A program made the position numbers and the translations under genes. Positions 46,086 through 63,763 of a stretch of DNA of 64,000 nucleotides are shown one piece after another. The number at the start of each line of letters is the position of its first letter. Position 1 is the stretch's first letter. The notes under the pieces were generated by a model. That model was not told where the DNA came from and made no database searches. It saw only the letters and a list, made by a program, of their open reading frames with translations. The DNA comes from Dickeya poaceiphila (GTDB taxonomy: Bacteria; Pseudomonadota; Gammaproteobacteria; Enterobacterales; Enterobacteriaceae): assembly GCF_007858975.2 (NCBI RefSeq), contig NZ_CP042220.2, forward strand, positions 806,001 to 870,000, in the 5' to 3' direction.

Positions 46086-46108
46086 ATGTGCTTTTTATTG
46101 TGTGATTT

Positions 46109-46247: not shown

Positions 46248-46362
46248 GACACCGTTTCCATTTTCTCAGTTCAGGTTCAGGTTTGTAATTTTGCGCCGCT
46301 ATATGCGCTTCATCGGGATGATAGTTCGCATGAATGCATCAAAGTATGGATTTCATCAAGGC

Positions 46363-47670
46363 TCACGATGTCAGATGTTCACGTAATGTCCTTCCTGTAT
46401 ATTCCTGGCGAAAGAGTCCCCGCCGTCTTAATTCGGGAACGACCCATTGAGTAAAATCGTTAAATCCACCAGGCAGCCAGGGCGACATAATATTAAAACC
46501 ATCCGTTGCGTTCTGACGGAACCAGTATTCCATCTCGTCTGCAATTTGCGAGGCCGTACCGACAAGCTGCCAATGGCCTCTTGCTCCTGCCACATGTCGG
46601 CATAGCTGACGCAGGGTATATCTCTCCCGCCTGGCCAGTTCAATGAGTAAATGACGACGGCTGTGACTGGCGTTACTGGCCGGAAGTGGTGGAAGAGGTG
46701 CGTCCAGGGAGAACGACGACAGATCCACACCACCGAGTTGTACCTGAAGAAGTGCCAGGCTGACGTCATCATCGATCAACGCCTGGAGCTGTTCGAATTT
46801 CTCCTGCGCTTCTTGCGTACTGCGCCCTACAAAGGGAAACAACCCTGTCATGATTAATGGGGCACTGCGTTCAATTGCCGCAGCCCGCTGATGAATATCC
46901 TGGTAAAAATCTTTTGCACTGGCGAAATCATGCTGTGCGGAAAAGATAACCTCACTGGTTCGTGTTGCGAGTCTGCGACCCGCATCGGACGCACCAGCTT
47001 GTACGATGACCGGATTTCCACCTGGACAGGCGGGAACATTCAGTGGGCCTTTTACCCGAAAATACTCCCCCTGGTGATTAAGGATATGAAGTCCGTCAAC
47101 ATTGAAAAATGTCCCTTGAACCTTGTCATAGCAAAATGCATCCTCATCCCAGCTTTGCCACAGTCCTTTGACGACATCAAAAAATTCCTCGGCACGCTGG
47201 TAGCGCTGATGATGATCAGGATGGTTTTCCAAACCAAAATTGCCAGCCTCAAACGGATTTTGCGACGTCACCAGATTCCAGCCCACCCGGCCTTTACTAA
47301 GATGAGCCAACGAGGCAAACTGCCGCGCCAGCATATAGGGACTGTTGTAAGTTGTAGTAGCCGATGCAACAAGGCCGATACGCGTGGTTACGGTACTCAA
47401 GGCTGAAATCAGCGTCAGGGGTTCAAACTGCCCCACATAGCGATGCGCTCCTTTACTGAGCACGTTCCAGTCATCTCCTTTAACGGCAAGGCTATCTGCC
47501 AGAAAAATAAAATCGAAGGCGGCTTGCTCTGCCTGTTGGGCAAATGCAATGCAGTGTTCGATGTTCACCCCAGCGTTAGCTGGCACGTCTGGATGCCGCC
47601 ACGCTGCAATGTGGTAACCGGTCGGATACCAGAAAGCGCCAAGTTTCATCATCGGATTGGCTGTTTGCAT
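46363..47670 (-). CDS. Flavin-dependent monooxygenase, NtaA/SnaA/DszA family
   Basis: 435-residue luciferase-fold enzyme that would use reduced FMN and O2 supplied by a separate reductase. It begins KLGAFWYPTGYHIAAWRHPD, then FDFIFLADSLAV, VATTTYNSPYMLARQF-type residues (SATTTYNSPYMLARQFASL), GRVGWNLVTSQNPFEAGNFG and GNPVIVQAGASDAGRRLA, all typical of the NtaA group. Known members oxidise N- or S-containing carbon compounds, some N-hydroxylating and some cleaving C-N or C-S bonds. It is the last gene of the leftward operon, 3 bases after the nucleotidyltransferase-like gene. The ATG at 47670 lacks a good ribosome site; the MM six codons on is an alternative. Confidence 0.88.
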   Translation of the reverse strand: MQTANPMMKLGAFWYPTGYHIAAWRHPDVPANAGVNIEHCIAFAQQAEQAAFDFIFLADSLAVKGDDWNVLSKGAHRYVGQFEPLTLISALSTVTTRIGLVASATTTYNSPYMLARQFASLAHLSKGRVGWNLVTSQNPFEAGNFGLENHPDHHQRYQRAEEFFDVVKGLWQSWDEDAFCYDKVQGTFFNVDGLHILNHQGEYFRVKGPLNVPACPGGNPVIVQAGASDAGRRLATRTSEVIFSAQHDFASAKDFYQDIHQRAAAIERSAPLIMTGLFPFVGRSTQEAQEKFEQLQALIDDDVSLALLQVQLGGVDLSSFSLDAPLPPLPASNASHSRRHLLIELARRERYTLRQLCRHVAGARGHWQLVGTASQIADEMEYWFRQNATDGFNIMSPWLPGGFNDFTQWVVPELRRRGLFRQEYTGRTLREHLTS

Positions 47671-47673
47671 ATT

Positions 47674-48900
47674 TTATGGTTCCAGGTCAGGTGTGAGCTG
47701 GAAGAACGGAGCATTGATGACACTTTGCAAATACTCAGTCTCTTCATCACTGAAAAGGCCAACACCGCCCAGCAGAAACGTGCCTGCCGGGGTTGTCAGC
47801 AGTAAATAGTGCCGATGTTTTATCAGGTGCAATGGGTGTGGATAAGTATTCAGGTGAATACCGTAAACAGGGAAGGCAAAACGCATCGCAAGGCGAATAG
47901 CCCATGGCCTATCTAGCAGACTGAGTAGGCGCAGTGCCAGATTCCCCGTCTGACACGCGCGATCTAGTGCCTGTCTTAGCCGGTTACGCCAGCCGAGCTT
48001 ACCTTCCGGGGAAAGAGAACGTATTTTTTCCGCCAGATGAACCAGTTCGTTTGGCGGTGACTGATTAAATTGGAAAAAGGCCGAGAGCAGTTTAGTTACC
48101 TGAGCGCCGAGTCCTTCATCATTAAGTGTTGTGGCCAGTGCATCGATATCGTTTTTATCCGTAAGCGTCATGCACAGACAATAACCATCGTAGAGATCCC
48201 GCAGCATACATTCCGGGCGAGTGGCTAGCTCCATAAAAAAAATGACGAGCATCATTCGGCTATCAGGTACGCAAAGCGGGAGCGACTCAATGCATTTTTT
48301 CACGGCGTGCTGACGCAACATCGGCCATGTGATCACATGGTGTTCGTCAACGGCAAACTGCCCAATGTGCAGTTCAATGCCTCCGTCTTCATTGCCATTA
48401 CGATGAATGAAACGGGCCAGTCCTTGCCAACTCTGCTGCTCTTTTCGCCAGACAAACTGTGCCATAAAGGGTAAATGAAAGTCGCCATGGAGTAACTCGG
48501 TTGCTATCCGGCAGAATGTGCTGAAATCAGCCACTACTATGTCCAGGTCTTTGGCAAACCTGTCCATTTTTTCAGGGTAGAGAATTTCATGGCCAAACCC
48601 CTTCATCAACATGGCGTCAGCAGTCTGGCTAAACGGAGTGGTAATACGCAGAGCATCAAACCAGCTGCGTCGCTCCACTTCATGAGTGTGCAAAATGCTC
48701 TGATACTTTTCCGGCAGTGGCTCATCATGATACAGATGATAAAACGCGGCGACGTGCGGCAGGATTTTATGGCTGACAGCACAGTCAAGGCTAAGTTGCC
48801 ACTGTTCGGTCGTCAGCGTTCGTGCCAACTCCTCGGTACGCTGGGGATCAAACAGAAAGCAGGTCAGTACACGATCAATATCGGTCCGTGTTGTTGTCAT
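47674..48900 (-). CDS. Nucleotidyltransferase-fold protein of unknown function
   Basis: 408-residue protein. Residues 85-125 have the pattern of uncharacterised minimal nucleotidyltransferases (NTP_transf_5 type): MLMKGFGHEILYPEKMDRFA followed by KDLDIVVADF, where the K-D-L-D-I motif would hold the catalytic aspartates. A later ELHIGQFAVDEHHVITWP resembles the third-acid region of that family. The rest is helical. Such proteins occur in biosynthetic and surface-sugar loci, mostly without known substrates. The ATG at 48900 overlaps the aminotransferase stop in ATGA, so the longer frame is rejected. Function here is unknown. Confidence 0.7.
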   Translation of the reverse strand: MTTTRTDIDRVLTCFLFDPQRTEELARTLTTEQWQLSLDCAVSHKILPHVAAFYHLYHDEPLPEKYQSILHTHEVERRSWFDALRITTPFSQTADAMLMKGFGHEILYPEKMDRFAKDLDIVVADFSTFCRIATELLHGDFHLPFMAQFVWRKEQQSWQGLARFIHRNGNEDGGIELHIGQFAVDEHHVITWPMLRQHAVKKCIESLPLCVPDSRMMLVIFFMELATRPECMLRDLYDGYCLCMTLTDKNDIDALATTLNDEGLGAQVTKLLSAFFQFNQSPPNELVHLAEKIRSLSPEGKLGWRNRLRQALDRACQTGNLALRLLSLLDRPWAIRLAMRFAFPVYGIHLNTYPHPLHLIKHRHYLLLTTPAGTFLLGGVGLFSDEETEYLQSVINAPFFQLTPDLEP

Positions 48901-49970
48901 CGTTTTTCTCCCTTCAGGACATTTTCCAGCCATAGCATCCTGCTTTCCTGTAACGGCACACTGAGGCGCAACAGCGTGGTGGTTGTGTCGGCTTCTTGCC
49001 AAAAATGGTGGCGCTTTGTACCAATACCGAGATGACGGAGTGTCGTTTCCTCATTTGTCGGCAGAAAAAGGTAGGGCATTGCATTACTGGAAGGCATTAC
49101 AGGCCACCCTTCAAACAACATGATCGCAGCCTGCTTTTGCTGTTGAATTCGCGCACGCAGCCACGCGGTGCTGTCCCCCATGGTCAACACATCGTGAACA
49201 ATGCGCAATGTTAAAGAAGGGTTAAGCAATGGAGGAATGATTTCCCGTAGCGTCTCCTTTAGTGCTGGTGACGATATGCAGAGTCCCGTACGGAGACTGC
49301 CTAATCCCCACGCCTTTGATACCCCCCGTAACACGATGATATTTGGCAGATACGCCAGCAGATGAACCGCGCTGTAGGAGGGGGGCTGGTAGTTGGCATT
49401 AGATTCATCAATCAACAGAGTGATCCCGGCTCCCGCTAATGACATTCCCAGCTCATACACCGTATCAAGTGACATAAAAGTATCTTCCCGGACACCGGGA
49501 CGCTCGATGAAAAACACATCCGCACCCAAGCTGATGGCCTGCTTCACACAGCCAGTTACGGTTTTTGCGCGGATTCGCCATACACTCCGGCCTGATTTCT
49601 TAAGCCACCAGGGAAAGTCAGGATAAATTTCATCGGCCACAGCGACACTGCCCTTTACGCTCAATGCCGGCAATACACTTAAGAGTTGAATCACTCCTGC
49701 GCCACAGGAGAGCGACAAGCCATCTTCTTTCACGCCAAAATAGCTACAAACTGCCGGGGTAAGACGCCGCTCTCCCCAAGGATCGTCTACGGCGTAATGC
49801 CAGATATCAGGTAACTTACGGTCAATTTCATGATACAAACTCTGCTCAATAAGGGAGGGAAGTGGCGGAGTAATAAAGTCACGTTCATCCTTTGTCCACG
49901 CCAGATTCAGCAACGTTGGCGTATCGTCAAGTGAGAGGTGACGATAAGAGTCAATAGCGCGATTTAACAT
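48897..49970 (-). CDS. PLP-dependent aminotransferase, class I/II (HisC-like fold)
   Basis: 357-residue fold-type I PLP enzyme. Recognisable parts are SLSCGAGVIQLLSVLPAL (cofactor phosphate loop), FFIERPGVRED, TLLIDESNANY (Asp that binds the pyridine N) and LRGVSKAWGLGSLRTGL with the PLP lysine in S-K-A-W. The pattern is closest to histidinol-phosphate aminotransferase and cobalamin CobD-like decarboxylases. Whether it transaminates or decarboxylates cannot be told. GGGAGG lies 5 bases before the ATG at 49970, and it overlaps the upstream phosphatase gene by 7 bases and the next gene by 4. Confidence 0.85.
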   Translation of the reverse strand: MLNRAIDSYRHLSLDDTPTLLNLAWTKDERDFITPPLPSLIEQSLYHEIDRKLPDIWHYAVDDPWGERRLTPAVCSYFGVKEDGLSLSCGAGVIQLLSVLPALSVKGSVAVADEIYPDFPWWLKKSGRSVWRIRAKTVTGCVKQAISLGADVFFIERPGVREDTFMSLDTVYELGMSLAGAGITLLIDESNANYQPPSYSAVHLLAYLPNIIVLRGVSKAWGLGSLRTGLCISSPALKETLREIIPPLLNPSLTLRIVHDVLTMGDSTAWLRARIQQQKQAAIMLFEGWPVMPSSNAMPYLFLPTNEETTLRHLGIGTKRHHFWQEADTTTTLLRLSVPLQESRMLWLENVLKGEKR

Positions 49971-50998
49971 TGTGCCTCCCATACCGCATAAAAGACATCA
50001 AGCTCATCTGCCTGGCGCGAGCCGTGCTCGTAGCACCAACCGATGGGCGCGATAAAGCGTTCACCGCGGGCGATAAGAAATAGATCTCCCGCTCGGTGTC
50101 CCACCTCGGCCAATTCCGTACCAGGCACGATGTCGGCAACATCGCTGAATGCCGTTATCAGAGCGTTCTGGAACGCCGGTATGTTCTCTTTAGCAACGTA
50201 AAACCAACGTGTTAGTCCGGCTCCTCCCATCGTCGCACCAAATTGATCACACAAAACGGCAATAAGGCGAGCCATCTCCTCATCATGGACAACAGGCACT
50301 AAACCATGATCGGAGTGCGCGATGACGTCATATCCCTGATGTGTCAGGTGCTGCGCTAGTTCATCAATGCCTTGCAGAAACGTTGTAACCAGGCTGTCGT
50401 AGCCATGGGTGTGAATGTAGTGATCGACATCAATAAACACCCAAATCAGGCAAGGCGTGGCTGACCGGGCAAGCGCCCGTTCGACAGCTGTCTCAACAGT
50501 CTCTAGTTGTGCCTTGGGATTCAATGGCGGAGTAAGCGTGAAAAAGGCCGTCGGATCGGTAAACTCGGCTCCTTGTAACAATGCGCGAGTCCAGGCTCCT
50601 TCAATGGGAAGCAGATCACCCATGATAGCCTGCGGTAGGTAGCCACTGCGGCGAGCGTCATGGAAAATGCTCTCCCCAGGAATCGCCAGTTTGTCTCCCT
50701 GATACTGGCAAATGTTGATAAGTGTCTCCTGCACACACTTGTCTTGAAATACTACGCCTGGAATGCCGTGTTCAGATACGCTTAAACCAGTCAGACTACT
50801 AAGCCAGCACGTTGTTGAGGTAGTAGGAAAAACGGCCTGCCAACGCTCGATAGTCGGTATGTGCCAGATCGCATCGGCCAATTTCCCAGGAATCCCATCT
50901 AACGCGAAAATAATCTGATGTCTGTTGCGTGGTAAGCGTGCGGCAATACGATGGCGAAACTGACGCAGGCTTAAAGGCACAGTGGTTTCCACGGTCAT
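49964..50998 (-). CDS. Alkaline-phosphatase-superfamily phosphodiesterase/nucleotide pyrophosphatase-like protein
   Basis: 344-residue protein with the complete metal-site set of the superfamily: Asp in IIFALDGIPG, the Thr nucleophile in FPTTSTTCWLSSLTGL, HGIPGVVF, Asp and His in DVDHYIHTHG, Asp-His in HSDHGLVP and a late His in CYEHGS. Members split phosphodiesters, pyrophosphates or phosphonate esters, or move phosphate. There is no signal peptide when started at 50998 (ATGA overlap with the FAD gene), so it acts in the cytoplasm, which suits a biosynthetic step better than nutrient scavenging. Confidence 0.85.
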   Translation of the reverse strand: MTVETTVPLSLRQFRHRIAARLPRNRHQIIFALDGIPGKLADAIWHIPTIERWQAVFPTTSTTCWLSSLTGLSVSEHGIPGVVFQDKCVQETLINICQYQGDKLAIPGESIFHDARRSGYLPQAIMGDLLPIEGAWTRALLQGAEFTDPTAFFTLTPPLNPKAQLETVETAVERALARSATPCLIWVFIDVDHYIHTHGYDSLVTTFLQGIDELAQHLTHQGYDVIAHSDHGLVPVVHDEEMARLIAVLCDQFGATMGGAGLTRWFYVAKENIPAFQNALITAFSDVADIVPGTELAEVGHRAGDLFLIARGERFIAPIGWCYEHGSRQADELDVFYAVWEAQC

Positions 50999-53121
50999 AA
51001 ACTCTCGATTTCCTGTGCTGTTTGCGAAAATTGAGTCATCCATTCAATCAGCTCCGTTGCCCAGCCATGCACGGCAGTGAGGATAGTGCTGTTTGAGTCT
51101 GGACGTGCCGCCGAATTCTGAAAAAAGCAGAGTCCTTCAACTGGAGCGCCCAGGAAGGTCAACCGTCTTTCCACCCGGTTATCACAATCAATGGGATGAA
51201 AATCGGATGTTAAGTCAAGCGCGCCTGGAATGAAGCTCTCACCGCTCGCGCCACGGTTCTCCCATAAGCGAACCAGTCCTGCTGTCAACATGGAGGGGTA
51301 AAGCGGATTGTGTTGTCGGCGAGCGTCGAAAGGATGTAAACGAGCACAACACAAGTAATCGACCTGTTGGTGAAATTTTCGACCGACTAAACGGTATCCC
51401 TGGCGTTTTCCGGATGAGCGAATACGAGTAACTGCGGGAGCGATCATCACTCGCCCTTCACGTATCAATGTGCCCAGTTTCTCCATGGCTTCGATACCGG
51501 CACCATTAGACAGGCGATTATAGTGAGAGAGCCAATGTTGCATAAAATCCCGATGTGAGTCGGGTGTCAGGCCGCCAAAATCAGTGACGCTGGAGAACAC
51601 TGCACGTAAATCACGCCACACACCATCACAGGCAGCCTTCATCGGATTCGAGAGATTTCCTTGTTCGGCATAGGCCAGATCTCGTTCCAGAGCCTCAAGA
51701 ATAGCAGCCTTGTGCGAGCGGCCTGGCTGTGTTGTTGGGTGAAAAATTTCTTCCCAATCAAACAGATGATCGTTAATGTCGGGAGGGTGACGCCATTTGA
51801 TGGCCTCAGGCGGAAGTGAGCGTAAACGTCTGATTGCGTCACCGGGTGCGACCGTCTCATCGGTCAACGTACGAAGAAAGGCTACCGCAGCCTCTTCAAT
51901 GGCAGGCGTAGTTCGGGTTGTTACGGGACAGGCTGTTGTCAACGCTTGTGCCATCTGATGAAAACGCTGAGTCAATGTGGACAACAGGATGTCGATATCG
52001 CACTGAACACCGCGCGATGGTCGGGTCAGAAAATCTTGATAATGTACAATAAGCGTTGTACTAGCCTCCTGTACAAACCGATCACCAAGTAAGGTACGGT
52101 AATAGACCCACGCCATTTCCAGCACGATCAAAGGGAAAACATCGCGTTGAAAATCCAGCTGTCGGCAGATGCGTCCGTCTCTCTGAACGCTTGTTACACC
52201 GCGATAACGACGCAGAATGTCTATAGCATCAGGACAAAAAAAACGGGCTTGATGTGCATCTGCGGCATTTTTTTCATTACGGGGGCGGGCCGAATAGATC
52301 TGGCCGCTGCGACTAAACGCAATAATTTGTGCCGGTTCAGCACCGCAGGGGTGATAATGTAGCCCGCCATCCGCCGCGTTGACGAAATGCCCCCCTCGTC
52401 CTTCAGTAAGATGAAGACAAATGTCGATTGCAGTTAACCCCATGCCGCTCAATGCAACACGACTGCCTGGATATACGATATCCACTCTTTCCAGCGGATA
52501 AGCGTAAGGGATGTAGCGTAACCCGCGATGAAAACGAGCTTCTGCCGTTTTCCAGTGGGCGCGGCAGGGAGTATGCCCTGTGACAAATAGTGCATAATGG
52601 AAACGAAAGCCCGTCGGAAATCCCGTGCTATGCAGAACAAAAGCCTTATCGTCACGGCTGACACGGGTGACATCATCGCTATGGGTAGCAACGTCCACAT
52701 TAGGCAGTTCTCGCAAGGCCTCGGAGTAAGCATCGAAATACTCGCGTAGCGCAAGGCCGTGCAGATAACGATGCGGCATATCGTGCGGCTGAAGATCAAA
52801 CTGCTTATTACCCGTTTCGTAAAATCGCTGGCGACACCAGTGGTAAAAATTGAGACGTAAATAAGCAGGTAGCAAGGTATCTGTCGCGCTTACCGATTCA
52901 TCGGCGGCAAACGCAATTTGATTGACCGGACGATTTAGATAACAGCTTTTACTTTGCAAATCACTGTGCGCCATCCCTGCGCCAAAACGTCCTGTATTAT
53001 CGAAAATATGTATAGATATAGGGAACGCAGGAGGACTCGTGGTCAGCAGTGCCAGCAGACGCTCAAGCGCATACACCGAACGTGGGCCACCGCCGATAAT
53101 CGCTACCACTACTTTTTCCAT
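50995..53121 (-). CDS. Large FAD/NAD(P)-binding oxidoreductase-like protein
   Basis: 708-residue protein with an N-terminal dinucleotide-binding motif VVVAIIGGGPRSVYALERLL of the NAD_binding_9 type (FAD-NAD(P)-binding). Further Rossmann-like parts are VALSGMGLTAIDICLHLTEG near residue 218 and LFVTGHTPCRAHW near 180. The second half is helical, then KRQGYRLVGRKFHQQVDYLC. The family is found beside biosynthetic genes in many bacteria and is thought to oxidise or N-hydroxylate small substrates, without firm biochemistry. GAGGAATGT precedes the ATG; it begins 14 bases after the PEP-barrel gene. Role here is unknown. Confidence 0.8.
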   Translation of the reverse strand: MEKVVVAIIGGGPRSVYALERLLALLTTSPPAFPISIHIFDNTGRFGAGMAHSDLQSKSCYLNRPVNQIAFAADESVSATDTLLPAYLRLNFYHWCRQRFYETGNKQFDLQPHDMPHRYLHGLALREYFDAYSEALRELPNVDVATHSDDVTRVSRDDKAFVLHSTGFPTGFRFHYALFVTGHTPCRAHWKTAEARFHRGLRYIPYAYPLERVDIVYPGSRVALSGMGLTAIDICLHLTEGRGGHFVNAADGGLHYHPCGAEPAQIIAFSRSGQIYSARPRNEKNAADAHQARFFCPDAIDILRRYRGVTSVQRDGRICRQLDFQRDVFPLIVLEMAWVYYRTLLGDRFVQEASTTLIVHYQDFLTRPSRGVQCDIDILLSTLTQRFHQMAQALTTACPVTTRTTPAIEEAAVAFLRTLTDETVAPGDAIRRLRSLPPEAIKWRHPPDINDHLFDWEEIFHPTTQPGRSHKAAILEALERDLAYAEQGNLSNPMKAACDGVWRDLRAVFSSVTDFGGLTPDSHRDFMQHWLSHYNRLSNGAGIEAMEKLGTLIREGRVMIAPAVTRIRSSGKRQGYRLVGRKFHQQVDYLCCARLHPFDARRQHNPLYPSMLTAGLVRLWENRGASGESFIPGALDLTSDFHPIDCDNRVERRLTFLGAPVEGLCFFQNSAARPDSNSTILTAVHGWATELIEWMTQFSQTAQEIESL

Positions 53122-53135
53122 ACATTCCTCATCCG

Positions 53136-54068
53136 TTAAGATTTAACCTTTTTGTGCCAGTGCAGGCCCTGAATTGTCATTGACGTGGTGTCGTTTGCGA
53201 CGTCTAGCAGAGACTGTGCCCACAGTCGCAAGCGCTTGCGGTTATCCTGCTTTTTGAAGTTGAGCATGAAATCCATGTCCTGATAGTTTGAAAACTGTTC
53301 GCCAAAAAAAGCTGGGAAGGAGGAGTAATGCACGGTAATAGCATCCATACCTATCTGTTTTGCCGTCTCCAGAAACTCAGGTTTCATATAGCCAGCAACG
53401 CTGATTCGTCCGTCACTGAGAGTCTGGCGCAACATCGTTAGCATCCCGATGATCGCCGGATGGTTATGACGATCAAAACCGCTGCCGCGACTGGCACCGG
53501 CTACCAGGCTGCTTAGATCATTCATCCCGACCAGGAAATATTCCAGACCCAATCGCTGGATGTCCTTTGCGTGCCACAAGGCGGCGGGGGTTTCCATCAT
53601 GCAGGACACTTTATTAGGGAAGTTAAAGCGACGTACGTAATCCATACCAAATTCGATTTCCGACATTTCACAAATGTACGGAAAGAGGATGTGTAAGTTT
53701 TTATGCTTTCTGGCAAGCGTAGTAACGACGTCAAACTCCAGATCAAAGGTACGTGGCAACTCCATAGCACGACGCATACCGCGCAAGCCTATTGTTGGGA
53801 ACTCTTCCAACACGTATTCGTCGTAGCCCTCCAGCATGTTGATTTCATTCGCAGGTGCATCAATGAAGCGATACCAAACATCCTTATCCGGGAAAATACG
53901 GAGAACGTTTTCAATATACTCTTCCATAAGCTGGCGTCCGTCCGGTGCCGTCAGGTATTTTCCTGCGCGCCGGAAAATATACTCACCCCGGAGCAGACCG
54001 ACAGCAGACACTTCCTCATAAAGACGGGCGTCAGGCAGTTCACCACTAAGAGAGACTTCAATATCCAT
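53136..54068 (-). CDS. Stand-alone PEP-binding barrel of the PTS enzyme I / PPDK C-terminal type, catalytic Cys missing
   Basis: 310-residue protein equal to only the C-terminal TIM barrel of PEP-utilising enzymes; the swivelling His domain and other domains are absent. The PEP-site residues are kept: SAVGLLRGEYIF (Arg27), PTIGLRGMRRAM (Arg96), CMMETPAAL (Glu159), VGMNDLSSL (Asn183, Asp184) and GASRGSG (Arg194). The segment that carries the proton-donating Cys in enzyme I (MCGE-type) reads ISVAGYM, with Ala225 in its place. PEP or a similar phospho-enol may be bound, but ordinary phosphotransfer to a His domain is unlikely. AGGAGCC lies before the ATG. Confidence 0.83.
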   Translation of the reverse strand: MDIEVSLSGELPDARLYEEVSAVGLLRGEYIFRRAGKYLTAPDGRQLMEEYIENVLRIFPDKDVWYRFIDAPANEINMLEGYDEYVLEEFPTIGLRGMRRAMELPRTFDLEFDVVTTLARKHKNLHILFPYICEMSEIEFGMDYVRRFNFPNKVSCMMETPAALWHAKDIQRLGLEYFLVGMNDLSSLVAGASRGSGFDRHNHPAIIGMLTMLRQTLSDGRISVAGYMKPEFLETAKQIGMDAITVHYSSFPAFFGEQFSNYQDMDFMLNFKKQDNRKRLRLWAQSLLDVANDTTSMTIQGLHWHKKVKS

Positions 54069-54091
54069 AATAGGCTCCTGATAAAAAGTAA

Positions 54092-54748: not shown

Positions 54749-54797
54749 AGAAAATCCTCAGGCTGATGTTGTCAGGCGCAGTGCGCTGAAGTCGGGA

Positions 54798-56066: not shown

Positions 56067-56168
56067 TACATCACCTCACATTTACCCTGAGTCATTGGAT
56101 GTTATTAGCGTAATAAACCGCCTCTTATCGGTTTATTAAACCATTAGTTATTAATATGTAATGAAAGT

Positions 56169-56192
56169 AAGGCCACGCAGAGACGTGGCCTT
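56169..56192 (-). terminator. Hairpin between the 70-codon gene and the PP-loop gene
   Basis: AAGGCCACG (56169-56177) pairs perfectly with CGTGGCCTT (56184-56192), 6-base loop. On the minus strand it comes 11 bases after the stop of the small gene and is followed by ACTTTCATTA. It could be an attenuator or RNA-stabilising stem that raises the level of the small gene over the enzyme genes. Confidence 0.7.
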
Positions 56193-56203
56193 GGGTATTT
56201 ATT

Positions 56204-56416
56204 TTATTGCGCACCCGTTTCGCAGCTGGCGCCACAAATAGTTTCAATACCGTATCGGGAAGCCGGAATAAATGCACGGCTTGCACGCATTGATTCCAGT
56301 TCGCTGACAGACAGGGCTGAATATTGGTGATGAGTACTATGCGCGATCAGATTTACAGTTTCGTTTTTCAGGTTGAAGTTATTGCTTTGGTTTTGTTTTA
56401 AAACAGTTTTTTGCAT
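56204..56416 (-). CDS. 70-residue peptide, candidate precursor at head of the leftward operon
   Basis: I do not recognise a family. The peptide starts MQKTVLKQNQSNNFNLKNET, is polar and rich in Asn, Ser and Gln, has a helix-prone centre (ALSVSELESMRASRAF) and ends IPASRYGIETICGASCETGA followed by Gln, with its only two cysteines three residues apart near the end. Size, position at the head of an operon, strong promoter and trailing hairpin are those of a RiPP-type precursor with leader and C-terminal core. GAGGATGTGAGA lies before the ATG at 56416. An accessory or carrier role is also possible. Confidence 0.65.
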   Translation of the reverse strand: MQKTVLKQNQSNNFNLKNETVNLIAHSTHHQYSALSVSELESMRASRAFIPASRYGIETICGASCETGAQ

Positions 56417-56506
56417 TCTCACATCCTCGTTTGAAAATGGAACACCCGATCTGTCACATGAATAAAACAAATAAAACAAATTAAAAACATACATGCAACA
56501 AATTTA

Positions 56507-56534
56507 TTTATAGATCTAAATAGCTATTTGTCAA
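56507..56534 (-). promoter_or_regulatory. Promoter of the leftward biosynthetic operon
   Basis: On the minus strand TTGACA (56534-56529), a 16-base spacer and TATAAA (56512-56507). The leader to the 70-codon gene would be about 85 bases. The surrounding 350 bases are strongly AT-rich. Confidence 0.65.
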
Positions 56535-56664
56535 TATCGATTATTACTTTCAAATTATAATTTTTATGTATTTCTTGAAGTAATTTACCCGCTTATATTA
56601 TTACTTATGTAAACTATTTCGATTTAAATGTATTTTTAATGATACGGGATTGTGTGTTTTTTGC

Positions 56665-56692
56665 TTGACATTTGTTACCACCATGATAAGAC
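56665..56692 (+). promoter_or_regulatory. Probable promoter of the rightward biosynthetic operon
   Basis: TTGACA at 56665-56670, then 16 bases and TAAGAC at 56687-56692 as a weak -10. The leader to the 16-codon gene would be about 75 bases. The -35 is perfect but the -10 is poor, which suggests help from an activator. Confidence 0.45.
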
Positions 56693-56772
56693 TAAATTGC
56701 TGTTTAATTCTCCACCGCGTGAATAAACAGAACATAATGCATAAACCTGAATCTTTTTTAAGGAGAGTCGTT

Positions 56773-56823
56773 ATGAATGCGAAGAAACTGAAAAAAGTAC
56801 GTCGTGGTAGTGCAGCATTGTAA
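56773..56823 (+). CDS. 16-residue basic peptide gene, candidate precursor or leader peptide
   Basis: A complete 16-codon gene coding for MNAKKLKKVRRGSAAL with a very strong ribosome site (AAGGAGAG, 6 bases before the ATG) and a perfect 12-bp hairpin after the stop. The peptide has four Lys and two Arg and ends in a small neutral GSAAL. Next comes the gene of a protein that looks like a peptide-recognition domain joined to a diiron oxidase, so it may be a minimal substrate peptide. The alternative is a regulatory leader peptide that works with the hairpin as an attenuator. Far too short for homology to decide by eye. Confidence 0.6.
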   Translation: MNAKKLKKVRRGSAAL

Positions 56824-56836
56824 TTTTTAATGACAC

Positions 56837-56867
56837 GGTTAATGGCACAGATATTGTGCCATTAACC
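56837..56867 (+). terminator. Hairpin after the 16-codon gene
   Basis: GGTTAATGGCAC (56837-56848) pairs perfectly over 12 bp with its complement at 56856-56867, 7-base loop. It is followed by ATAATTAAATATT rather than a T-run, so it may be an attenuator, partial terminator or mRNA-protecting stem. Confidence 0.7.
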
Positions 56868-56910
56868 ATAATTAAATATTACCGCTATTGCCTTTTATTA
56901 GGGGCTGCCA

Positions 56911-57864
56911 ATGATCTATTTACCCGATTATATAAAAATAAAATCCCACGGAAATACACTATTCTTTTATGTTTTTGAACAAGTATTTGAAATCACCTTT
57001 GATGATGAGGTGCAATATATTGCTGCACAACAGCTTGTCAATGAGATAGAAAATAAAGGATGTACTGAAAGGGATAATACACCATTCTGTGAATATCTAT
57101 TGGAAAACAATCTTGTTTTTGAGCAGGTCGATAATATTGTCCCGAACAATGCGTTTGGTAGCACAGGTAGTGCGTTTTATAACCGCCTGTTCAACATCGT
57201 CAATAATCAGTGGTTGTTAGAAAAAGGTGAGACACCACTAGCTCAAGCGCTACTGGAACCGGAGAAACACCGTGCGTTATTACTCGGTTGGACACTAGAG
57301 TATTTTCACGTTACTCGTTTAGCGATCACCTCACTTATAGGTATTCTTGGGCACGAGCTTTCTCCGGAATTAGCGGTGCTTGCCCACGACTTTGTAAAAG
57401 AAGAGTTGTTCCATGAGCGCATTATGGCAAAAGCGTTCATTGATACCCCATGGGATGAAAAGCAAGTGTTCGCCTCACGACCATTGCCTTCGACGCAGGC
57501 CTATATGGATTTCCTTAAAGATATTGCTTTCCGTCGTCCACACTCGTTTTTTGCCAGCCTGTTTTTCTACGAAGGTGACGATGAAGACATGCTGATGTTC
57601 TCTGAACTTATCCCTGATACACCAGAGTTTCGCCGAATACGTGACAGTCATCTCGCACACGCTCGTATTAATATTCAAGGAGAACACTCTGATTTTTCAT
57701 ACCTCTATTTCTCGCAGATACCGTTCCTGACTCACGAACAACAACATGAGATTCTTGATGATATGGCCTATCTCAATTTTTTGTTCTACGACATGCAGGA
57801 TGACGTTTTTACTTTTTATCGGGATGAAATGGCGATAGAGGAGCGGCTATGTATCAATCAATGA
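56911..57864 (+). CDS. Haem-oxygenase-like diiron oxidase with N-terminal RRE-like domain
   Basis: 317-residue protein. Residues 1-72 (IYLPDYIKIKSHGNTLFFYV to ENNLVF) have three strands then three helices, the pattern of the PqqD-like RiPP recognition element, which holds leader peptides. Residues 85-310 look like the TenA/haem-oxygenase-like fold, with possible iron ligands in LEYFHV (Glu130, His133), KEELFHE (Glu165, His168), YEGDDED and HLAHARI (His247, His250). Such enzymes activate O2 to cut C-C or C-N bonds, hydroxylate or desaturate. The fusion, if right, points to oxidation of a peptide-bound residue. It follows the 16-codon gene directly. Confidence 0.75.
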   Translation: MIYLPDYIKIKSHGNTLFFYVFEQVFEITFDDEVQYIAAQQLVNEIENKGCTERDNTPFCEYLLENNLVFEQVDNIVPNNAFGSTGSAFYNRLFNIVNNQWLLEKGETPLAQALLEPEKHRALLLGWTLEYFHVTRLAITSLIGILGHELSPELAVLAHDFVKEELFHERIMAKAFIDTPWDEKQVFASRPLPSTQAYMDFLKDIAFRRPHSFFASLFFYEGDDEDMLMFSELIPDTPEFRRIRDSHLAHARINIQGEHSDFSYLYFSQIPFLTHEQQHEILDDMAYLNFLFYDMQDDVFTFYRDEMAIEERLCINQ

Positions 57865-58187
57865 TATTCCAGTTGGTCAGCCTTGGGATTGCGATGAGTG
57901 CAGAGCCGTCAGTGGATTTACGTGGTGTATGGAAAAAGATGACCCTGCTGGATGACATTGAAAAAACCCTGAGTTTTGAGCAAAGGGCAATTGTAACGCG
58001 CGGACGTATATTGATGTTTGAAGGACAAACTCGCTTTTTCGCCTTTTTGCAGAGCGTCTGTCATGAACTTCCAGATACGCCGTGGAAAAGCGAGATGAGT
58101 GAATTGCTTGCCCAGGTAGGCTTGCCGGCATTTATTGAGGATCGGGAATTTATTTCCCACTATATAAAGGATAAAGCCAAATCATGA
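57849..58187 (+). CDS. Small unknown protein of the island
   Basis: 112-residue protein not recognised. It has an N-terminal hydrophobic stretch (MIFQLVSLGIAM) but no clean signal site, then a mainly helical, charged remainder (DDIEKTLSFEQRAIVTRG, FEGQTRFFAFLQSVCHEL). It overlaps the oxidase gene by 16 bases and the exporter gene by 4, with GAGGAG before its ATG, so it is translated together with both. A partner subunit of the oxidase or an immunity protein would fit the position, but nothing in the sequence proves either. Confidence 0.7.
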   Translation: MYQSMIFQLVSLGIAMSAEPSVDLRGVWKKMTLLDDIEKTLSFEQRAIVTRGRILMFEGQTRFFAFLQSVCHELPDTPWKSEMSELLAQVGLPAFIEDREFISHYIKDKAKS

Positions 58188-59356
58188 CCGTACTGTTAAT
58201 CATTGCCATGCTGAAAGCAGTTGCCGAAAAAATAAGTAATTTTATTTTGCCGCTATGGGCATTTCAGCAGACCCAGTCTAACGACCTGATGAGTTATGTA
58301 CGCATGTTTGAATACCTCCCTTTTATGGTGTTGGGATTCATCATTGGTGCTCTGGTGGATAGGGTTGGTAGCCGACGTGGCTTTACGTTTGGTACGACGG
58401 GACAGGTTATCGTGCTGGCAGTGCTAGCCTGGTACGGTATCCAGTCACCACACCTGCTTTTCATGCTGGTATTCATGCTGATGGGGATGACCTATTTCGC
58501 CAACAATTCCCTTATCGTGCAATCCCGGCTCACGCTGCCAGACAACCGACTCATAACATATAATCGGTACACCAATATGGTGAGCAACGTTATGGAAAGT
58601 GCGGGGCCGGCGATCATTGGCGCTCTGTTATTGCTGTTGAGCTACACTCAGGCGTTGCATTTTTCGTATGTGCTGCTGTTTATCTCACTGTTACTTGGGG
58701 TTAACTCGTTCAGACAGGCCCCTCCTGTGGAAAAAAAACCATTTATTCCAGATATAATGCACGGTTTTCGTGCTTTATATCGTCTGCGTAACCTCTGGGT
58801 TCTGTCCTGGTGGACAGCGTTCGCCAATGCCATCATTGTGGTGTCTGAAGTCGTCGTCATGTACTGTGCGAAATCGACATTTTCCTTTACGGATTTTCAG
58901 GTCGGAGTATTGTTTGCGGTCGGCGGTCTGGGCGCAATAAGTGGATCATGGTTCTCTGAACGTATTGAGCAGCATTTTGGTGTGATTCGGGTACTAGCCT
59001 ACAGTATCCCGCTGATTGGCCTGATATATCTCTTTATTAGCGTTCACATAACGCCTGTCACTCTGGGAATCATGCTTTTTTGTGAGTCCTTCCTTTTTTC
59101 CCTCTATATTGTCTGCGTTCGTACCTACAGACTGGTAGTCGCCCCCGCAAATGATCTCGGCAAAATAAACGGCATTACAGGCAGTATCTTTAAAATGTTT
59201 ATTCCCGTTTCGCTCACACTCTATGCCCTGTGGGGAAACCAGATTTCAACAGGGACAGTGCTGGGAATAATGGGGATATTATTTGTGTCAGGATCGATTG
59301 CCTTAGTCGCCTCCAGCGCGCTCAAAATGCAGGAAAAATTGTCGGATAACTACTAA
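58184..59356 (+). CDS. MFS exporter, EntS-like
   Basis: 390-residue membrane protein with about 12 helices. Family traits are the N-terminal FEYLPFMVLGFIIGALVDRV, GSRRGFTFGT in the first cytoplasmic loop, and NRYTNMVSNVMESAGPAIIG in the fifth helix region, as in EntS/MFS_3-type efflux proteins for siderophores and macrolides. It probably exports the product of the island and gives self-protection. The ATG overlaps the preceding stop in ATGA. Confidence 0.87.
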   Translation: MTVLLIIAMLKAVAEKISNFILPLWAFQQTQSNDLMSYVRMFEYLPFMVLGFIIGALVDRVGSRRGFTFGTTGQVIVLAVLAWYGIQSPHLLFMLVFMLMGMTYFANNSLIVQSRLTLPDNRLITYNRYTNMVSNVMESAGPAIIGALLLLLSYTQALHFSYVLLFISLLLGVNSFRQAPPVEKKPFIPDIMHGFRALYRLRNLWVLSWWTAFANAIIVVSEVVVMYCAKSTFSFTDFQVGVLFAVGGLGAISGSWFSERIEQHFGVIRVLAYSIPLIGLIYLFISVHITPVTLGIMLFCESFLFSLYIVCVRTYRLVVAPANDLGKINGITGSIFKMFIPVSLTLYALWGNQISTGTVLGIMGILFVSGSIALVASSALKMQEKLSDNY

Positions 59357-59388
59357 TTGCCGGATCACTACTAAGTAAGAGGCGAATC

Positions 59389-61017
59389 ATGGCGCAAGAA
59401 TGGCTCGAATGGGTGCTGAATGAGAGCAATGAAACACGGATGCTCAACATCATTACTGCGCTGAGTGCATTTGATCGTTATCAGGCATCGCAGGGAATGT
59501 TGAACGCGGCAGCATTTGTCTCTCATGAAGCCAGAAAACGGATGATGGTGGATGTAGATATTCACCATTTTGATGCCGATGGTTCACGAAGTTGGTGGGA
59601 TTTTCACGCCCCCGTAGCCTGGACACCGCTAAAAGCTGTTTTATCCCTGCCCCAGTTACCACAGTTCCTGGATCATCAGACGGAGCCTTTCACGTTAGCC
59701 ACCTATTCGAGGGAAGCCAGCGGCTATTACCCCCTAGTGTTATATAAACACACAAGGGATGTATCAGGAAAAACAGATAGTTCGGGAAAGGTGGTGCTGA
59801 TCACCGCGGCAGACTATCTCTGCAGCAGTGTACTGGAGCATCTAAAACAAACAGGAGCTGCTGGCTTTATAACCGATGCCTTTGCCCGATTTGACGCATT
59901 GTCCGGTTGCTACTGGCGTGGGCGTATTGAACTTGCACCAGATAGCGGGTTATTTGCCTTTAGTGTACTTCCCGATGAGCTATGCACCCTGAGGCGAGCG
60001 GCGGATGCGGGAGTCGAAGCGAACATTGAAATTACTATTGATCGTAACGCAACCATGCCAGTGGTGAGTGCGTTAATCCCAGGAAAGCATCAAGAACGGG
60101 AGATCTGGGTTACGGCACACCTGTGTCATGCACGTGCAGGGGCGAATGATAATGCGTCTGGGGTAAGCGCATCACTTGAGCTAACTGCTCTATTGCAACA
60201 ACTGATCGAAAAAATGGGAAGGCTCCGCTATCCACTACGCACTATCTGGGGGCCTGAATTTTTAGGTGTCGCTGCAATGCAGCATAAAAGACGCCATCAA
60301 CCCGGTCCGATCGCAGTCATTAATCTGGATATGGTGGGGGAAGACCAGCGCCTCTGCGGATCGCCAATGTGCGTTGAACTGCCACTCGAAGGATTTGCGT
60401 CACCGCTGGGTGACATGGCGCAAACGCTCATGCAGCGTGTTTTTGAATTGACGGCTGAACACTCCGGTTCGTGGTTGAGTATGCCATTTCAAGGTTTTTC
60501 CGATCACGCTCTATTTATGAACCATGGCGAAACGAATAATAACTGCCCAGCTGTGCAGTTGTGCCATATCAATGATCGATTCAACCATACCGCTGGCGAT
60601 ACGCCGGATAAAGTCTCACTGATAGAAATGAAACGCACTGTGGCTGTTGCGCTGGCACTCATCATGCAGTTGCAAAACCTTAGCCCTGAACAAATTAGTC
60701 CCCGGCGAAAACCATCAACGCGTAAGGAGGGCGGAATTGTGGGTTGCTGGACAGGGCCGCTTAATCTTCGAAGGCTTATCCAGCAGTTGGAAAATCCGCT
60801 TCGACAAGTGGTTGAACGGTTAATTGCGGAGGATAAACGTTATCTATCATTGCTGCATCACTGTGCGCTTAACGCTGATGGGCGTCAGCGCGAAATTCTC
60901 CTTGATGAATCTGTCCGCATAACAGGGCTTGAGTTGTCAGAGGAAAACGTTGCCACATTATATGCCGTTTTTGATGCATCTGATTATTTTCAGGTCTGCA
61001 CGGCAGATCCTCTTTGA
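59389..61017 (+). CDS. M28-type zinc aminopeptidase-like protein (DUF4910)
   Basis: 542-residue protein. The metal-site residues of the M28 fold are seen in order: VTAHLCHARAGANDNASGVS (His244, Asp254), WGPEFLGVAAM (Glu290), VINLDMVGED (Asp314) and GFSDHALFMNHG (His373). An inserted PA-like domain covers about residues 90-235, and a C-terminal winged-helix-like part follows residue 430, which fits DUF4910 proteins. There is no signal peptide. It could trim an N-terminal amino acid or leader from the product, or cut an amide in an intermediate. AGAGGCGAATC precedes the ATG. Confidence 0.85.
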   Translation: MAQEWLEWVLNESNETRMLNIITALSAFDRYQASQGMLNAAAFVSHEARKRMMVDVDIHHFDADGSRSWWDFHAPVAWTPLKAVLSLPQLPQFLDHQTEPFTLATYSREASGYYPLVLYKHTRDVSGKTDSSGKVVLITAADYLCSSVLEHLKQTGAAGFITDAFARFDALSGCYWRGRIELAPDSGLFAFSVLPDELCTLRRAADAGVEANIEITIDRNATMPVVSALIPGKHQEREIWVTAHLCHARAGANDNASGVSASLELTALLQQLIEKMGRLRYPLRTIWGPEFLGVAAMQHKRRHQPGPIAVINLDMVGEDQRLCGSPMCVELPLEGFASPLGDMAQTLMQRVFELTAEHSGSWLSMPFQGFSDHALFMNHGETNNNCPAVQLCHINDRFNHTAGDTPDKVSLIEMKRTVAVALALIMQLQNLSPEQISPRRKPSTRKEGGIVGCWTGPLNLRRLIQQLENPLRQVVERLIAEDKRYLSLLHHCALNADGRQREILLDESVRITGLELSEENVATLYAVFDASDYFQVCTADPL

Positions 61018-61029
61018 AGAGTGCACCTT

Positions 61030-61236
61030 ATGGACCCAGAACAACTTTTTGAGTATTGCATTGCAAAAGAGAAGATCAGTGTGCCACAAGAATGGCGGGC
61101 TGGAACACTCCAGTGCGTCATGGAACTCCGTCGTGCGGTAGAACTGGTCTGTACTCAACGCTTTGATCAGGCAGAGCCGGCAAATGGCTTTTTTCCGAAA
61201 GCAATAGTTGACCATTATGAGGCGACGCGTGGATAA
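61030..61236 (+). CDS. AtzG-like (DUF4089) small subunit of the amidase
   Basis: 68-residue protein with the DUF4089/AtzG pattern: PEQLFEYCIAKEKISVPQEW, then RAGTLQCVMELRRAVELV, then a short AEPANGFFP. AtzG is the GatC-like partner that stabilises the amidase AtzE in cyanuric-acid breakdown. Here it lies directly before an AtzE/GatA-type amidase and overlaps it by 8 bases, the same pairing. I choose the ATG at 61030, 9 bases after GAAGA; a GTG at 61021 is possible. Confidence 0.78.
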   Translation: MDPEQLFEYCIAKEKISVPQEWRAGTLQCVMELRRAVELVCTQRFDQAEPANGFFPKAIVDHYEATRG

Positions 61237-62659
61237 GGCACTTCATCTGCTTTCGCTTACAGAGCTGTCTCGATTGTTGCACCAGCGAGCATTGACATCG
61301 GTTGCACTGACCGAGTATTTCCTGGCACGCATTACACGATTTAACCCAGTGCTAAACGCCTTTATTTACGTTGATGCTGAGCGTGCCCTCCGCGATGCCC
61401 GGTGCGCTGATGAAGCGCTAAATCAGGGAAAAGCCAGCGGTCCATTGACGGGAATACCTTATGCACTAAAGGATATTTTTGACGTTGAAGGTGAGCCAAC
61501 GACCTGTCATTCGCATCTGATGCTGCACCATCGCGCAGCGCGCAGTAGCACTGTAGAACGTCGCCTTTCAGCCTCCGGCGCGGTCTATCTGGGCAAGCTG
61601 GCGACGCATGAGTTTGCTCTGGGCGGACCAAGCCATGAACTACCATTTCCTCCCGCACGCAATCCCTGGAATAGGTCGCATTTTACTGGGGCATCATCTT
61701 CGGGGGCGGGGGCGGCAGTTGCCGCCGGACTTGTCCCCATCGCAATCGGCTCGGACACCAGCGGCTCAATACGCGGCCCTGCCTGTTTGTGTGGTGTTGT
61801 AGGTTTTAAACCAACTTATGGACTGGTTTCTCGTGCCGGGGTGTTTCCACTTTCATGGACATTGGATCACTGCGGACCATTAACGCGTTTTAGTGACGAC
61901 GCACGGTGGGTAATGCAGGTGATTGCAGGATACGACTCCGCCGACCCCACCACACTCACTCGCAAGCTGGATTTTTCTCCTCGTACTGTAGCATGGCCTC
62001 AGCACAGAATTGCCTGGCCACGACATCTGCTAACGGATAACCCTCATACCGACCCCGCATTAATTGCCGCAATGGATCGTGTTGTCGAAAATCTTACTGA
62101 TGCAGGGGCTCAGGTTGAGGAAATCACGTTTAAGGACTTTGCGCTGTTTAACGCCTGCGGACGCATCATCATGGCTGCAGAGTCTTTTGCCGTTCATCAA
62201 CATAATCTTCGCGAACGTGGTAATGAGTATGGACGCTTCACATACCAGCGCATTCTGCCTGGCGCAACGATTTCAGCTGCGGAGTTGATGGATGCGTTAC
62301 GTCTGCGTACAGCGCTGACAGGCTGGTTGAACAGGGAACTCTTTTCTCATTTTTCACTGCTTTTGTTCCCAGGAACATTACGCGCTGCGCCACGCTTCAG
62401 TGAGTTTTCGCCGGACTGGCCGCCAGCCAGTTACGTCGTACCAACACAAACCATCCCATTTAACGTCACTGGCAACCCGGCCTTGAGTCTGCCTTTAGGG
62501 CTCACGAATGAAAAGCTGCCGTTAGGTATGCAGCTCGTTGGCAGGCTGTTTGACGATAGCCGAGTGCTGGACGCAGGTGATTCAATGGAGAAATGGCTCA
62601 CGATGCCAGCCCTGAGTGATGATGTCATTCTGCATCAGCAGATAGAACCCGCAGCGTAA
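61229..62659 (+). CDS. Amidase-signature hydrolase, AtzE/GatA-like
   Basis: 476-residue amidase-signature enzyme with the Ser-cisSer-Lys triad: Lys in GIPYALKDIFDVEG, cis-Ser and Gly-rich loop in TGASSSGAGAAVAAGL, and the nucleophile in IGSDTSGSIRGPACL. FKPTYGLVSRAGVFPL and LDHCGPLTR follow as usual. The GTG at 61229 has GAGG 7 bases upstream; TTG 61208 and ATG 61217 in the same frame have no ribosome site. Paired with the AtzG-like protein it would split an amide, urea or carbamoyl bond in an intermediate or the exported product. Confidence 0.85.
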   Translation: MDKALHLLSLTELSRLLHQRALTSVALTEYFLARITRFNPVLNAFIYVDAERALRDARCADEALNQGKASGPLTGIPYALKDIFDVEGEPTTCHSHLMLHHRAARSSTVERRLSASGAVYLGKLATHEFALGGPSHELPFPPARNPWNRSHFTGASSSGAGAAVAAGLVPIAIGSDTSGSIRGPACLCGVVGFKPTYGLVSRAGVFPLSWTLDHCGPLTRFSDDARWVMQVIAGYDSADPTTLTRKLDFSPRTVAWPQHRIAWPRHLLTDNPHTDPALIAAMDRVVENLTDAGAQVEEITFKDFALFNACGRIIMAAESFAVHQHNLRERGNEYGRFTYQRILPGATISAAELMDALRLRTALTGWLNRELFSHFSLLLFPGTLRAAPRFSEFSPDWPPASYVVPTQTIPFNVTGNPALSLPLGLTNEKLPLGMQLVGRLFDDSRVLDAGDSMEKWLTMPALSDDVILHQQIEPAA

Positions 62660-63704
62660 AACGTGAATAGCTACGTGCAAGTAGTTTTTCAAGATGAGTA
62701 TTCACCTGGCCGTGGCGCAAAATCAAATGAGCCAGACTAAGAAAATATTGGACATAAGGTACACCGGTCCAGACGAAAAGGGGGGCTTTTGTCAGCAGCC
62801 ATTCCGGCGTTTTGCGACTGGAGCAATAAAGCGGATTGTTATCCAGAGCATAGCGAAAAGCGCGTTCGACGCCATATTCTGGCGCAAGAAGAGGGAAAAG
62901 GGCGAAGACAGATTGCTTGATGGCCTCCAGTGACCAGGCACGCAAATCGAGGTGAGGGGAGCTTGCTGTGCACAGACGCCACTCCTCTTCAAAAGCGGGC
63001 AACTCGGTGTCCCAGAAGGGAAGCGCAAAATCGCCGCAGGGATGGGGACAGGTGAGATGATTACGACAGTGACCAATCTCATGTGCCAGTTCGAGAGCCT
63101 CACGTGTAGTTAACTGGGTGAAATCAGCTGCGTTAAGCGCAATACTTGCGCTGCGCAGCCCTTCTTCAACACGTAGATCGGCATAGTTATCACTATCTGA
63201 GACAATTTCGATCTCATAACCATTAATATTAATGAGCGCAGAATCAGGCGCATAGTTAACGCAGTCAATATTCAAAGCCTGACAAACGTGTTGCACGGAT
63301 GAAAAATTATGAAGAAAGGGGTTTAGATATTCAAATCGCATATACTCCGGATGCTCAGGAGAAAAATTAAGATCATCCCACTGAGTCTGTCTGGCAATAT
63401 TCTGGGTTATTTCCACGATATCTTCTGCCAGAGCTGATCTGTCTACGTTGCAATAGCAGGAATTAAAATAGTGCTTCGTTTTGGCATAGATCTCATCAAA
63501 TCGTTTAACTCTGTTTTTACTCTCAGGGTGTGAGAGTAAGTCATCGTACTTATCTAACAGTTTATTGTCTCTGACGTTAGCCAATATATACAACCACGAT
63601 AATCGCTGTGGTAGTTCAATTTCTGTTGCCAGAGAGAGTAAACGTGCTTCAGAAATGTCATCGTCGAATAAAAGAGAAATATTTTTAGCTGTGATTATGT
63701 TCAT
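62625..63704 (-). CDS. HEIGH-motif zinc metallopeptidase-like protein
   Basis: 359-residue protein. The zincin motif HEIGH (residues 208-212) lies in a helix, TTREALELAHEIGHCRNHLT, with an acidic stretch FEEEWRL about 30 residues later that could give the third ligand. The motif and the length between resemble ImmA/IrrE-type or other short gluzincins. The flanks are not recognised. It is transcribed towards the amidase gene, overlapping it by 35 bases at the 3' ends. It could process a peptide product, or be a regulator or immunity factor. ATG 63704 or GTG 63719 may be the start; neither has a strong ribosome site. Confidence 0.7.
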   Translation of the reverse strand: MNIITAKNISLLFDDDISEARLLSLATEIELPQRLSWLYILANVRDNKLLDKYDDLLSHPESKNRVKRFDEIYAKTKHYFNSCYCNVDRSALAEDIVEITQNIARQTQWDDLNFSPEHPEYMRFEYLNPFLHNFSSVQHVCQALNIDCVNYAPDSALININGYEIEIVSDSDNYADLRVEEGLRSASIALNAADFTQLTTREALELAHEIGHCRNHLTCPHPCGDFALPFWDTELPAFEEEWRLCTASSPHLDLRAWSLEAIKQSVFALFPLLAPEYGVERAFRYALDNNPLYCSSRKTPEWLLTKAPLFVWTGVPYVQYFLSLAHLILRHGQVNTHLEKLLARSYSRFTLRVLSADAE

Positions 63705-63763
63705 TTTGTTAATCGTCACTAATTAATTTATCTTCCATTACCAATAAAATCATATTTTTGTCA

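Follow-up and report, generated by a model that had tools for sequence, protein, structure and literature searches.

An accessory island of Dickeya poaceiphila that probably encodes a peptide-based natural-product pathway of an undescribed class

What is made by the roughly 17 genes that separate a ytfK-like from a ytfL-like gene in Dickeya poaceiphila? We analysed a window of 64,000 nucleotides (positions 806,001 to 870,000 of contig NZ_CP042220.2; coordinates below count from its first letter), which belongs to a 4.3-Mb chromosome assembled as a single contig. The ytfK-like gene ends at 46008, the 3' end of the ytfL-like gene lies at 63780, and an extra block spans about 46049-63789, its edges being approximate. 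The first-pass annotation had placed a biosynthetic island between these two genes, and comparison within the genus confirmed this: in all eight same-genus genomes searched, the flank homologies lie only 47-115 nt apart and the island's PP-loop ATP pyrophosphatase gene is absent, so that ~17.7 kb is extra in this genome. Island GC is 0.484, compared with 0.544 in the left flank, and falls to 0.304 in the stretch between its two divergent operons. From its gene content, we consider it probable that the island encodes a horizontally acquired pathway for a ribosomally synthesized and post-translationally modified peptide (RiPP) of an undescribed class.

This assignment starts from a putative precursor peptide and its neighbour, the PP-loop gene. 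Using 17 island proteins as tblastn queries, we read five clusters, the island included; the others come from Pantoea sp. Mb-10, a P. agglomerans plasmid and two metagenome-assembled genomes (MAGs), one of Lysobacteraceae and one of Sulfitobacter. The precursor gene adjoins the PP-loop gene in all five. We found 19 precursor-family proteins, the island's own among them. In an alignment of 16 rows, 14 tails read ICGASCETGAQ; the remaining two are ICGGSCETGAQ in the Lysobacteraceae peptide and DICGGSTRVVSG in a distant peptide from a Xenorhabdus plasmid. The form ICG(A/G)SCETGAQ is kept in 15/15 close relatives aligned, including one from Nocardiopsis, and every one of the 16 database peptides listed ends in ICGASCETGAQ. 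The peptide search was biased to shared words; its unbiased part is the four other clusters, which were found through the PP-loop protein (4/4). Tail codons differ synonymously among the five clusters, and the leader is far more variable than the tail, except for an NF(N/D)LK patch. An encoded candidate precursor adjoins putative modifying enzymes, and both are conserved together, as in RiPP pathways. So constant a tail suggests a single product, built on or from it, rather than a variable peptide family.

The co-occurrence search proposed at first pass found the gene set together in all four other backgrounds, in altered versions in the three outside Pantoea sp. Mb-10. Pantoea sp. Mb-10 matched 16/17 queries on one contig at 61-92% identity; the island's 44-aa open reading frame (ORF) had no tblastn match there. 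The P. agglomerans plasmid matched 11/17 by tblastn, plus an NTP_transf_5 protein by profile; the 31 kb read gave no match for the oxidase with an RRE-like (RiPP recognition element) domain, its small neighbour, the major facilitator superfamily (MFS) exporter or the HExxH protein. The Lysobacteraceae cluster holds the peptide, PP-loop, flavin (FAD) and luciferase-like monooxygenase (LLM) proteins, the amidase, a pyridoxal phosphate (PLP) enzyme, the M28 peptidase and the alkaline-phosphatase (AP)-fold hydrolase, along with two NTP_transf_5 proteins, a homologue of the RRE-oxidase (28% identical), an enolase and two NDK-like proteins. The Sulfitobacter cluster holds the peptide, PP-loop, FAD, AP-fold, PLP, M28 and NTP_transf_5 proteins, the amidase with its small partner, an enolase and two NDK-like proteins; the LLM and RRE-oxidase had no match in this MAG. 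Common to all five are the FAD monooxygenase, PLP enzyme, AP-fold hydrolase, NTP_transf_5 protein, amidase and M28 peptidase. This recurrence supports the earlier suggestion of an unusual, peptide-based natural-product class. That the genes came together by chance, are decaying or form a defence island would suit the low GC, the repeats at both edges and the rare distribution, and has a negligible probability: the gene set is conserved in four other backgrounds, orthologous clusters that already contradict it, the frames are open and overlapping, and PADLOC matched 0/10 island proteins scanned.

Two side observations concern these relatives. The Sulfitobacter cluster has extra AMP-binding, weakly condensation-like and two dioxygenase-family proteins; the AMP-binding protein stands alone (Pfam match), the condensation match nearby is weak and below cut-off (L008 14388-17041, 19552-21021), and the two are perhaps an extension resembling a nonribosomal peptide synthetase. 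Next to the Lysobacteraceae RRE-oxidase homologue (L026 2378-6938), inspection by eye showed a peptidase-ABC exporter and a protein resembling HlyD.

The PP-loop protein has the fold of TtuA, NcsA and TilS with its SGGxDS loop, and differs from these enzymes in an extra N-terminal domain, in its link to a peptide gene and in the lack of an NcsA-type CxxC. We found 371 homologues at E<=0.001; among the 120 listed are proteins of Kluyvera, Vibrio, Pectobacterium, Dickeya, Streptomyces, Micromonospora, Myxococcus and Burkholderia, and 15 chosen homologues from several phyla share 59-76% identity with the island protein. If the enzyme thiolated the peptide to a thioamide or thioacid, much as TtuA and NcsA, its nearest folds, thiolate tRNA, and with the N-terminal domain as sulfur carrier, the three-Cys Fe-S site of TtuA and NcsA might be expected. 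Aligned to 6scy, however, the island protein lacks its CxxC: CSFC falls on F245-E-F-L248, with F245 invariant in 16/16 sequences, and five N-terminal pieces had no Pfam match. TtuA-type thiolation is accordingly disfavoured, and we regard thiolation of the peptide as decidedly improbable. Homologues also occur on plasmids. One from Xenorhabdus nematophila (L003 14768-18794) carries a distant PP-loop gene (32%), a peptide ending in ICGGSTRVVSG, an MFS protein and an AAA ATPase, which may point to another product of this PP-loop family; Geobacillus (L005 11523-15016) and Paenarthrobacter (L004 11671-12879) plasmids also carry homologues, the Geobacillus one beside a gene for a 47-aa peptide.

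We next consider phosphorus. Phosphodiesterase-like and nucleotidyltransferase-like proteins are present in 5/5 clusters, and NTP_transf_5 scored above its cut-off in 5/8 genomes or records searched. Matches to the phosphoenolpyruvate (PEP) barrel and the thymidylate-kinase-like protein were confined to the three enteric clusters; the other two carry the enolase and two NDK-like proteins instead; of two NDK-like proteins scanned, one was above and one below the Pfam cut-off. We infer that the pathway may need an enolase- or PEP-related function and phosphotransfer, supplied by non-homologous proteins. Identity is 64% between the two cluster enolases and 56-60% between them and the two main enteric enolases, a modest difference. 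Each cluster enolase is the single enolase seen in its MAG, so it could be a housekeeping gene; MAG incompleteness leaves room for another. A second enolase of Pantoea Mb-10 (L029 4070-6487) was dropped as a cluster part, as it lies on a different contig, where its neighbour resembles CrcB by eye, and the two are probably a fluoride-resistance set. Phosphorus-linked steps, as the first-pass annotation proposed, are therefore plausible, as an inference from the conserved proteins and the enolase/NDK-like swap.

Does this extend to a phosphonate pathway, with the barrel as PEP mutase and a C-P compound as product? The PEP barrel and enolase would suit it, as would the AP-fold hydrolase, whose family includes phosphonoacetate hydrolase. 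The N-hydroxylases to which the FAD protein is related are grouped with PcxL of phosphonocystoximate in PMC10404684. However, PEP mutase above its curated cut-off was found in 0/5 cluster-bearing genomes or records; 2/5 gave weaker matches, which reached at most 118.7 bits (cut-off 319.55), as did 6/14 control genomes. At E<=0.001, the solved structures related to the barrel belong to PEP synthases and EI proteins. Motifs of the PEP site are GLLRGE, METPAA and GMNDLS, all kept, and PEP synthase and EI barrels use a catalytic Cys; aligned to PEP synthases, the island barrel lacks this Cys, SICGQ of 9dae falling on SVAGY. Canonical phosphonate chemistry is disfavoured, and the phosphonate reading is very improbable.

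Oxidation would involve two enzymes. The FAD protein is homologous to the Streptomyces protein 8cp2 over residues 5-345 and 451-683 of 708, thus over both halves, and keeps six core residues (Arg13, Asn62, Arg266, Arg409, Arg412, Arg577), in common with the CreE/FzmM/PcxL N-hydroxylases. It differs from them in the Asp pocket, where Arg276, Asn413 and Arg416 are replaced by Ala289, Ala507 and Ser510; in addition, Trp51 is replaced by His. Free Asp is thus probably not its substrate, and we consider it a candidate N-oxygenase with a different substrate. PMC10404684 describes 8cp2 as an L-Asp N-hydroxylase of the CreE/FzmM family.

The RRE-oxidase had no Pfam match and matched 3dde with E 4e-5; its Lysobacteraceae homologue (L026:5931-6938) is above the PF14518 cut-off and keeps E130, E165, H168, H247 and H250. 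The structure model has a mean pLDDT of 62.7 with a poor oxidase half, so the assignment of that half to the haem-oxygenase-like iron oxidases, with putative metal binding, rests on sequence. The part fused to it is possibly an RRE; weak Foldseek matches include the PqqCD fusion. Leader-binding RREs are common in RiPP pathways and not obligatory.

Our best reading of these genes is a RiPP-type pathway of a new class in which the fixed tail would be the source or carrier of a single small product, N-oxygenated and phosphate- or PEP-linked. The RRE-like domain would hold the leader, and the PP-loop enzyme would adenylate a carbonyl in or at the tail, a nucleophile displacing AMP as TilS does on cytidine. 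That nucleophile may be a tail Cys, giving a thiazoline-type ring, or the amine of a building block, giving ligation. The haem-oxygenase-like oxidase and the flavoenzyme would oxidise the adduct or building block, the flavoenzyme at nitrogen. Kinase, AP-fold hydrolase, nucleotidyltransferase-like protein and PEP barrel may add and remove phosphate or PEP-derived groups, with the enolase and NDK-like pair standing in for the barrel/kinase step in other lineages. The M28, amidase and HExxH enzymes could then free the small product, and the MFS protein export it. A more specific proposal is tentative and falls somewhat short of even chances: tail activation would fall to a TilS/TtuA-fold enzyme instead of one of the YcaO, ThiF or PEARL kinds, and the activated tail would be the fixed scaffold on which one small N-oxygenated, PEP/phosphate-derived metabolite is assembled, in a pathway spanning proteobacteria and actinobacteria and perhaps myxobacteria. 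If true, it would be, to our knowledge, the first link of tRNA-lysidine-type chemistry to peptide natural products.

Known systems share parts of this scheme. PQQ and 3-thiaglutamate are single products made from or on a peptide. The pyrroloquinoline quinone (PQQ) pathway (PqqA, PqqC, PqqD) likewise has a ribosomal precursor with fixed residues, RRE-like and haem-oxygenase-like oxidase functions and peptidases; in the island, the RRE-like and oxidase functions appear fused, the radical-SAM enzyme PqqE is lacking, the conserved residues are others, and PP-loop, N-hydroxylase, kinase, PEP and amidase functions are added. Peptide aminoacyl-tRNA ligase (PEARL) pathways, such as that to 3-thiaglutamate, likewise build a small molecule on the tail of a peptide and cleave it off afterwards, but the island has no PEARL ligase or MNIO match, and its PP-loop enzyme is the candidate ATP-using ligase. 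With microcin C it would share adenylation of a short peptide, and MccB chains are among the fold matches; MccB, however, is ThiF/E1-like and the island enzyme has the PP-loop fold.

A different product would result if the leader were cut after the GA/GG of ICG(A/G), releasing SCETGAQ as an exported bacteriocin-like peptide with nucleotide or phosphate groups. ICGA/ICGG resembles a double-glycine-type cleavage site, and the exporter pair of the Lysobacteraceae cluster would suit such a product. Bacteriocin cores usually vary, though, and SCETGAQ is constant; Ile-Cys-Gly before the putative cut is as fixed as the core, and the island and Pantoea Mb-10 export by MFS. We consider this reading unlikely, and prefer the tail as source or scaffold of a small molecule. 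For the exported peptide there is a precedent in pseudomycoidin, a RiPP tailored by a kinase and a nucleotidyltransferase-like protein, and paeninodin and pseudomycoidin clusters share these two proteins with the island (PMC9266682); unlike these lasso peptides, the island has no lasso cyclase or B protein match.

Among the literature matches listed, we found no described cluster like the island and no RiPP class with its enzyme set, in line with the first-pass description of an undescribed cluster; most subscription journals lay outside the search, so novelty is provisional. Term searches of two RRE papers gave no hit to PP-loop, kinase, oxidase, PqqC or TilS in PMC12710340 ('oxygenase' occurs once, in a reference), nor to PP-loop, heme oxygenase, TENA, luciferase, Klebsiella or Pantoea in PMC7470986. 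The absence of YcaO, radical-SAM, lanthipeptide and PEARL enzymes, noted at first pass, held: Pfam and NCBIfam gave no match to YcaO, lanthionine synthetase, radical SAM, lasso cyclase or lantibiotic-dehydratase-like PEARL ligase among the island proteins scanned. Tools that work class by class could miss the cluster: neither the peptide nor the RRE-oxidase matches Pfam, and the PP-loop protein scores below its Pfam cut-off. A fixed tail beside a PP-loop enzyme across phyla points to chemistry outside the RiPP classes known or found. The two genes offer a clean two-gene test and the tail motif a mining handle for a candidate new small-molecule family.

Table 1. Positions of the island, its edge repeat and its genes within the window.
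Feature	Position	Strand	Basis
Island	46049..63789		Empty site in 8/8 congeners; edges approximate
MITE-like repeat, left edge	46110..46247	+	27-bp end also at 63765-63791, inverted
NtaA/MoxC-family FMN monooxygenase (LLM)	46363..47670	-	TIGR03860, 530 bits
NTP_transf_5 nucleotidyltransferase-like	47674..48900	-	PF14907 36.3 bits (cut-off 31.2)
PLP enzyme, CobD nearest named family	48897..49982	-	PF00155; TIGR01140 E 8.7e-19, far under cut-off
AP-fold phosphodiesterase-like hydrolase	49964..51043	-	PF01663; motifs PTTST, DVDH, SDHG
FAD/NADPH monooxygenase, L-Asp N-hydroxylase (CreE/FzmM) family	50995..53121	-	8cp2 E 2.4e-40, two stretches; substrate pocket altered
Isolated PEP-utilizing-enzyme barrel	53136..54068	-	PF02896; catalytic Cys region ICGQ -> VAGY
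Thymidylate-kinase-like P-loop kinase	54092..54748	-	PF02223 30.3 bits (cut-off 27); P-loop present
PP-loop ATP pyrophosphatase (TtuA/NcsA/TilS fold), extra N-terminal domain	54798..56066	-	
Precursor peptide, 70 aa, tail ICGASCETGAQ	56204..56416	-	18 other homologues; alignment; synonymous tail codons
16-codon ORF, strong ribosome-binding site	56773..56823	+	13-bp hairpin after ORF; conserved in Pantoea Mb-10
RRE-like domain fused to haem-oxygenase-like (putative diiron) oxidase	56911..57864	+	
Small protein, 112 aa, no family match	57849..58187	+	65% in Pantoea Mb-10
MFS exporter (predicted)	58184..59356	+	PF07690
M28-family peptidase	59389..61017	+	PF04389, PF16254
Small protein upstream of amidase	61021..61236	+	Kept in 3/4 other clusters; no Pfam match
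GatA/AtzE-type amidase	61208..62659	+	PF01425 1e-97; best NCBIfam GatA, AtzE, both under cut-off
HExxH protein, possible metallopeptidase	62625..63719	-	HEIGH motif; 61% in Pantoea Mb-10; no family match

The layout is divergent. From the centre, the minus-strand order is precursor, PP-loop, thymidylate-kinase-like, PEP barrel, FAD, AP-fold, PLP, NTP_transf_5 and luciferase-type monooxygenase; the plus-strand order is 16-codon ORF, RRE-oxidase, small protein, MFS, M28, small protein and amidase, after which the HExxH gene lies on the minus strand. The LLM's solved relatives are NTA monooxygenase and YtnJ/MoxC, and its identity is 84% in Pantoea Mb-10, 62% in P. agglomerans and 56% in the Lysobacteraceae MAG. 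A Pfam search with four small amidase-partner proteins gave no match.

The PP-loop protein is rare among species representatives: 1/97, 1/398, 1/369, 1/61, 1/250, 1/390 and 1/394 genomes were positive in partly overlapping samples, each time the genome on which the sample was centred. Searches of near and distant E. coli genomes and of phages had no result, and 16 pattern matches in viral contigs included no relative. One Klebsiella peptide entry represents 41 contigs, so the cluster may be commoner within some species. This distribution fits an accessory cluster that moves horizontally. The 18-bp end of the ERIC-like edge repeat occurs 64 times in the genome (<=2 mismatches; reversed-pattern control, 0), which leaves a role of this miniature inverted-repeat transposable element (MITE)-like sequence in insertion unproven. 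A sigma-70 scan was uninformative, with 9 sites where 24 were expected, and the one Rfam match, a snoRNA below cut-off, was taken as chance. The 16-codon ORF, MNAKKLKKVRRGSAAL, precedes the RRE-oxidase operon (56773-56911); the stretch 56740-56911 folds with a z of -4.3, and ORF and hairpin are possibly an attenuator or arrest peptide.

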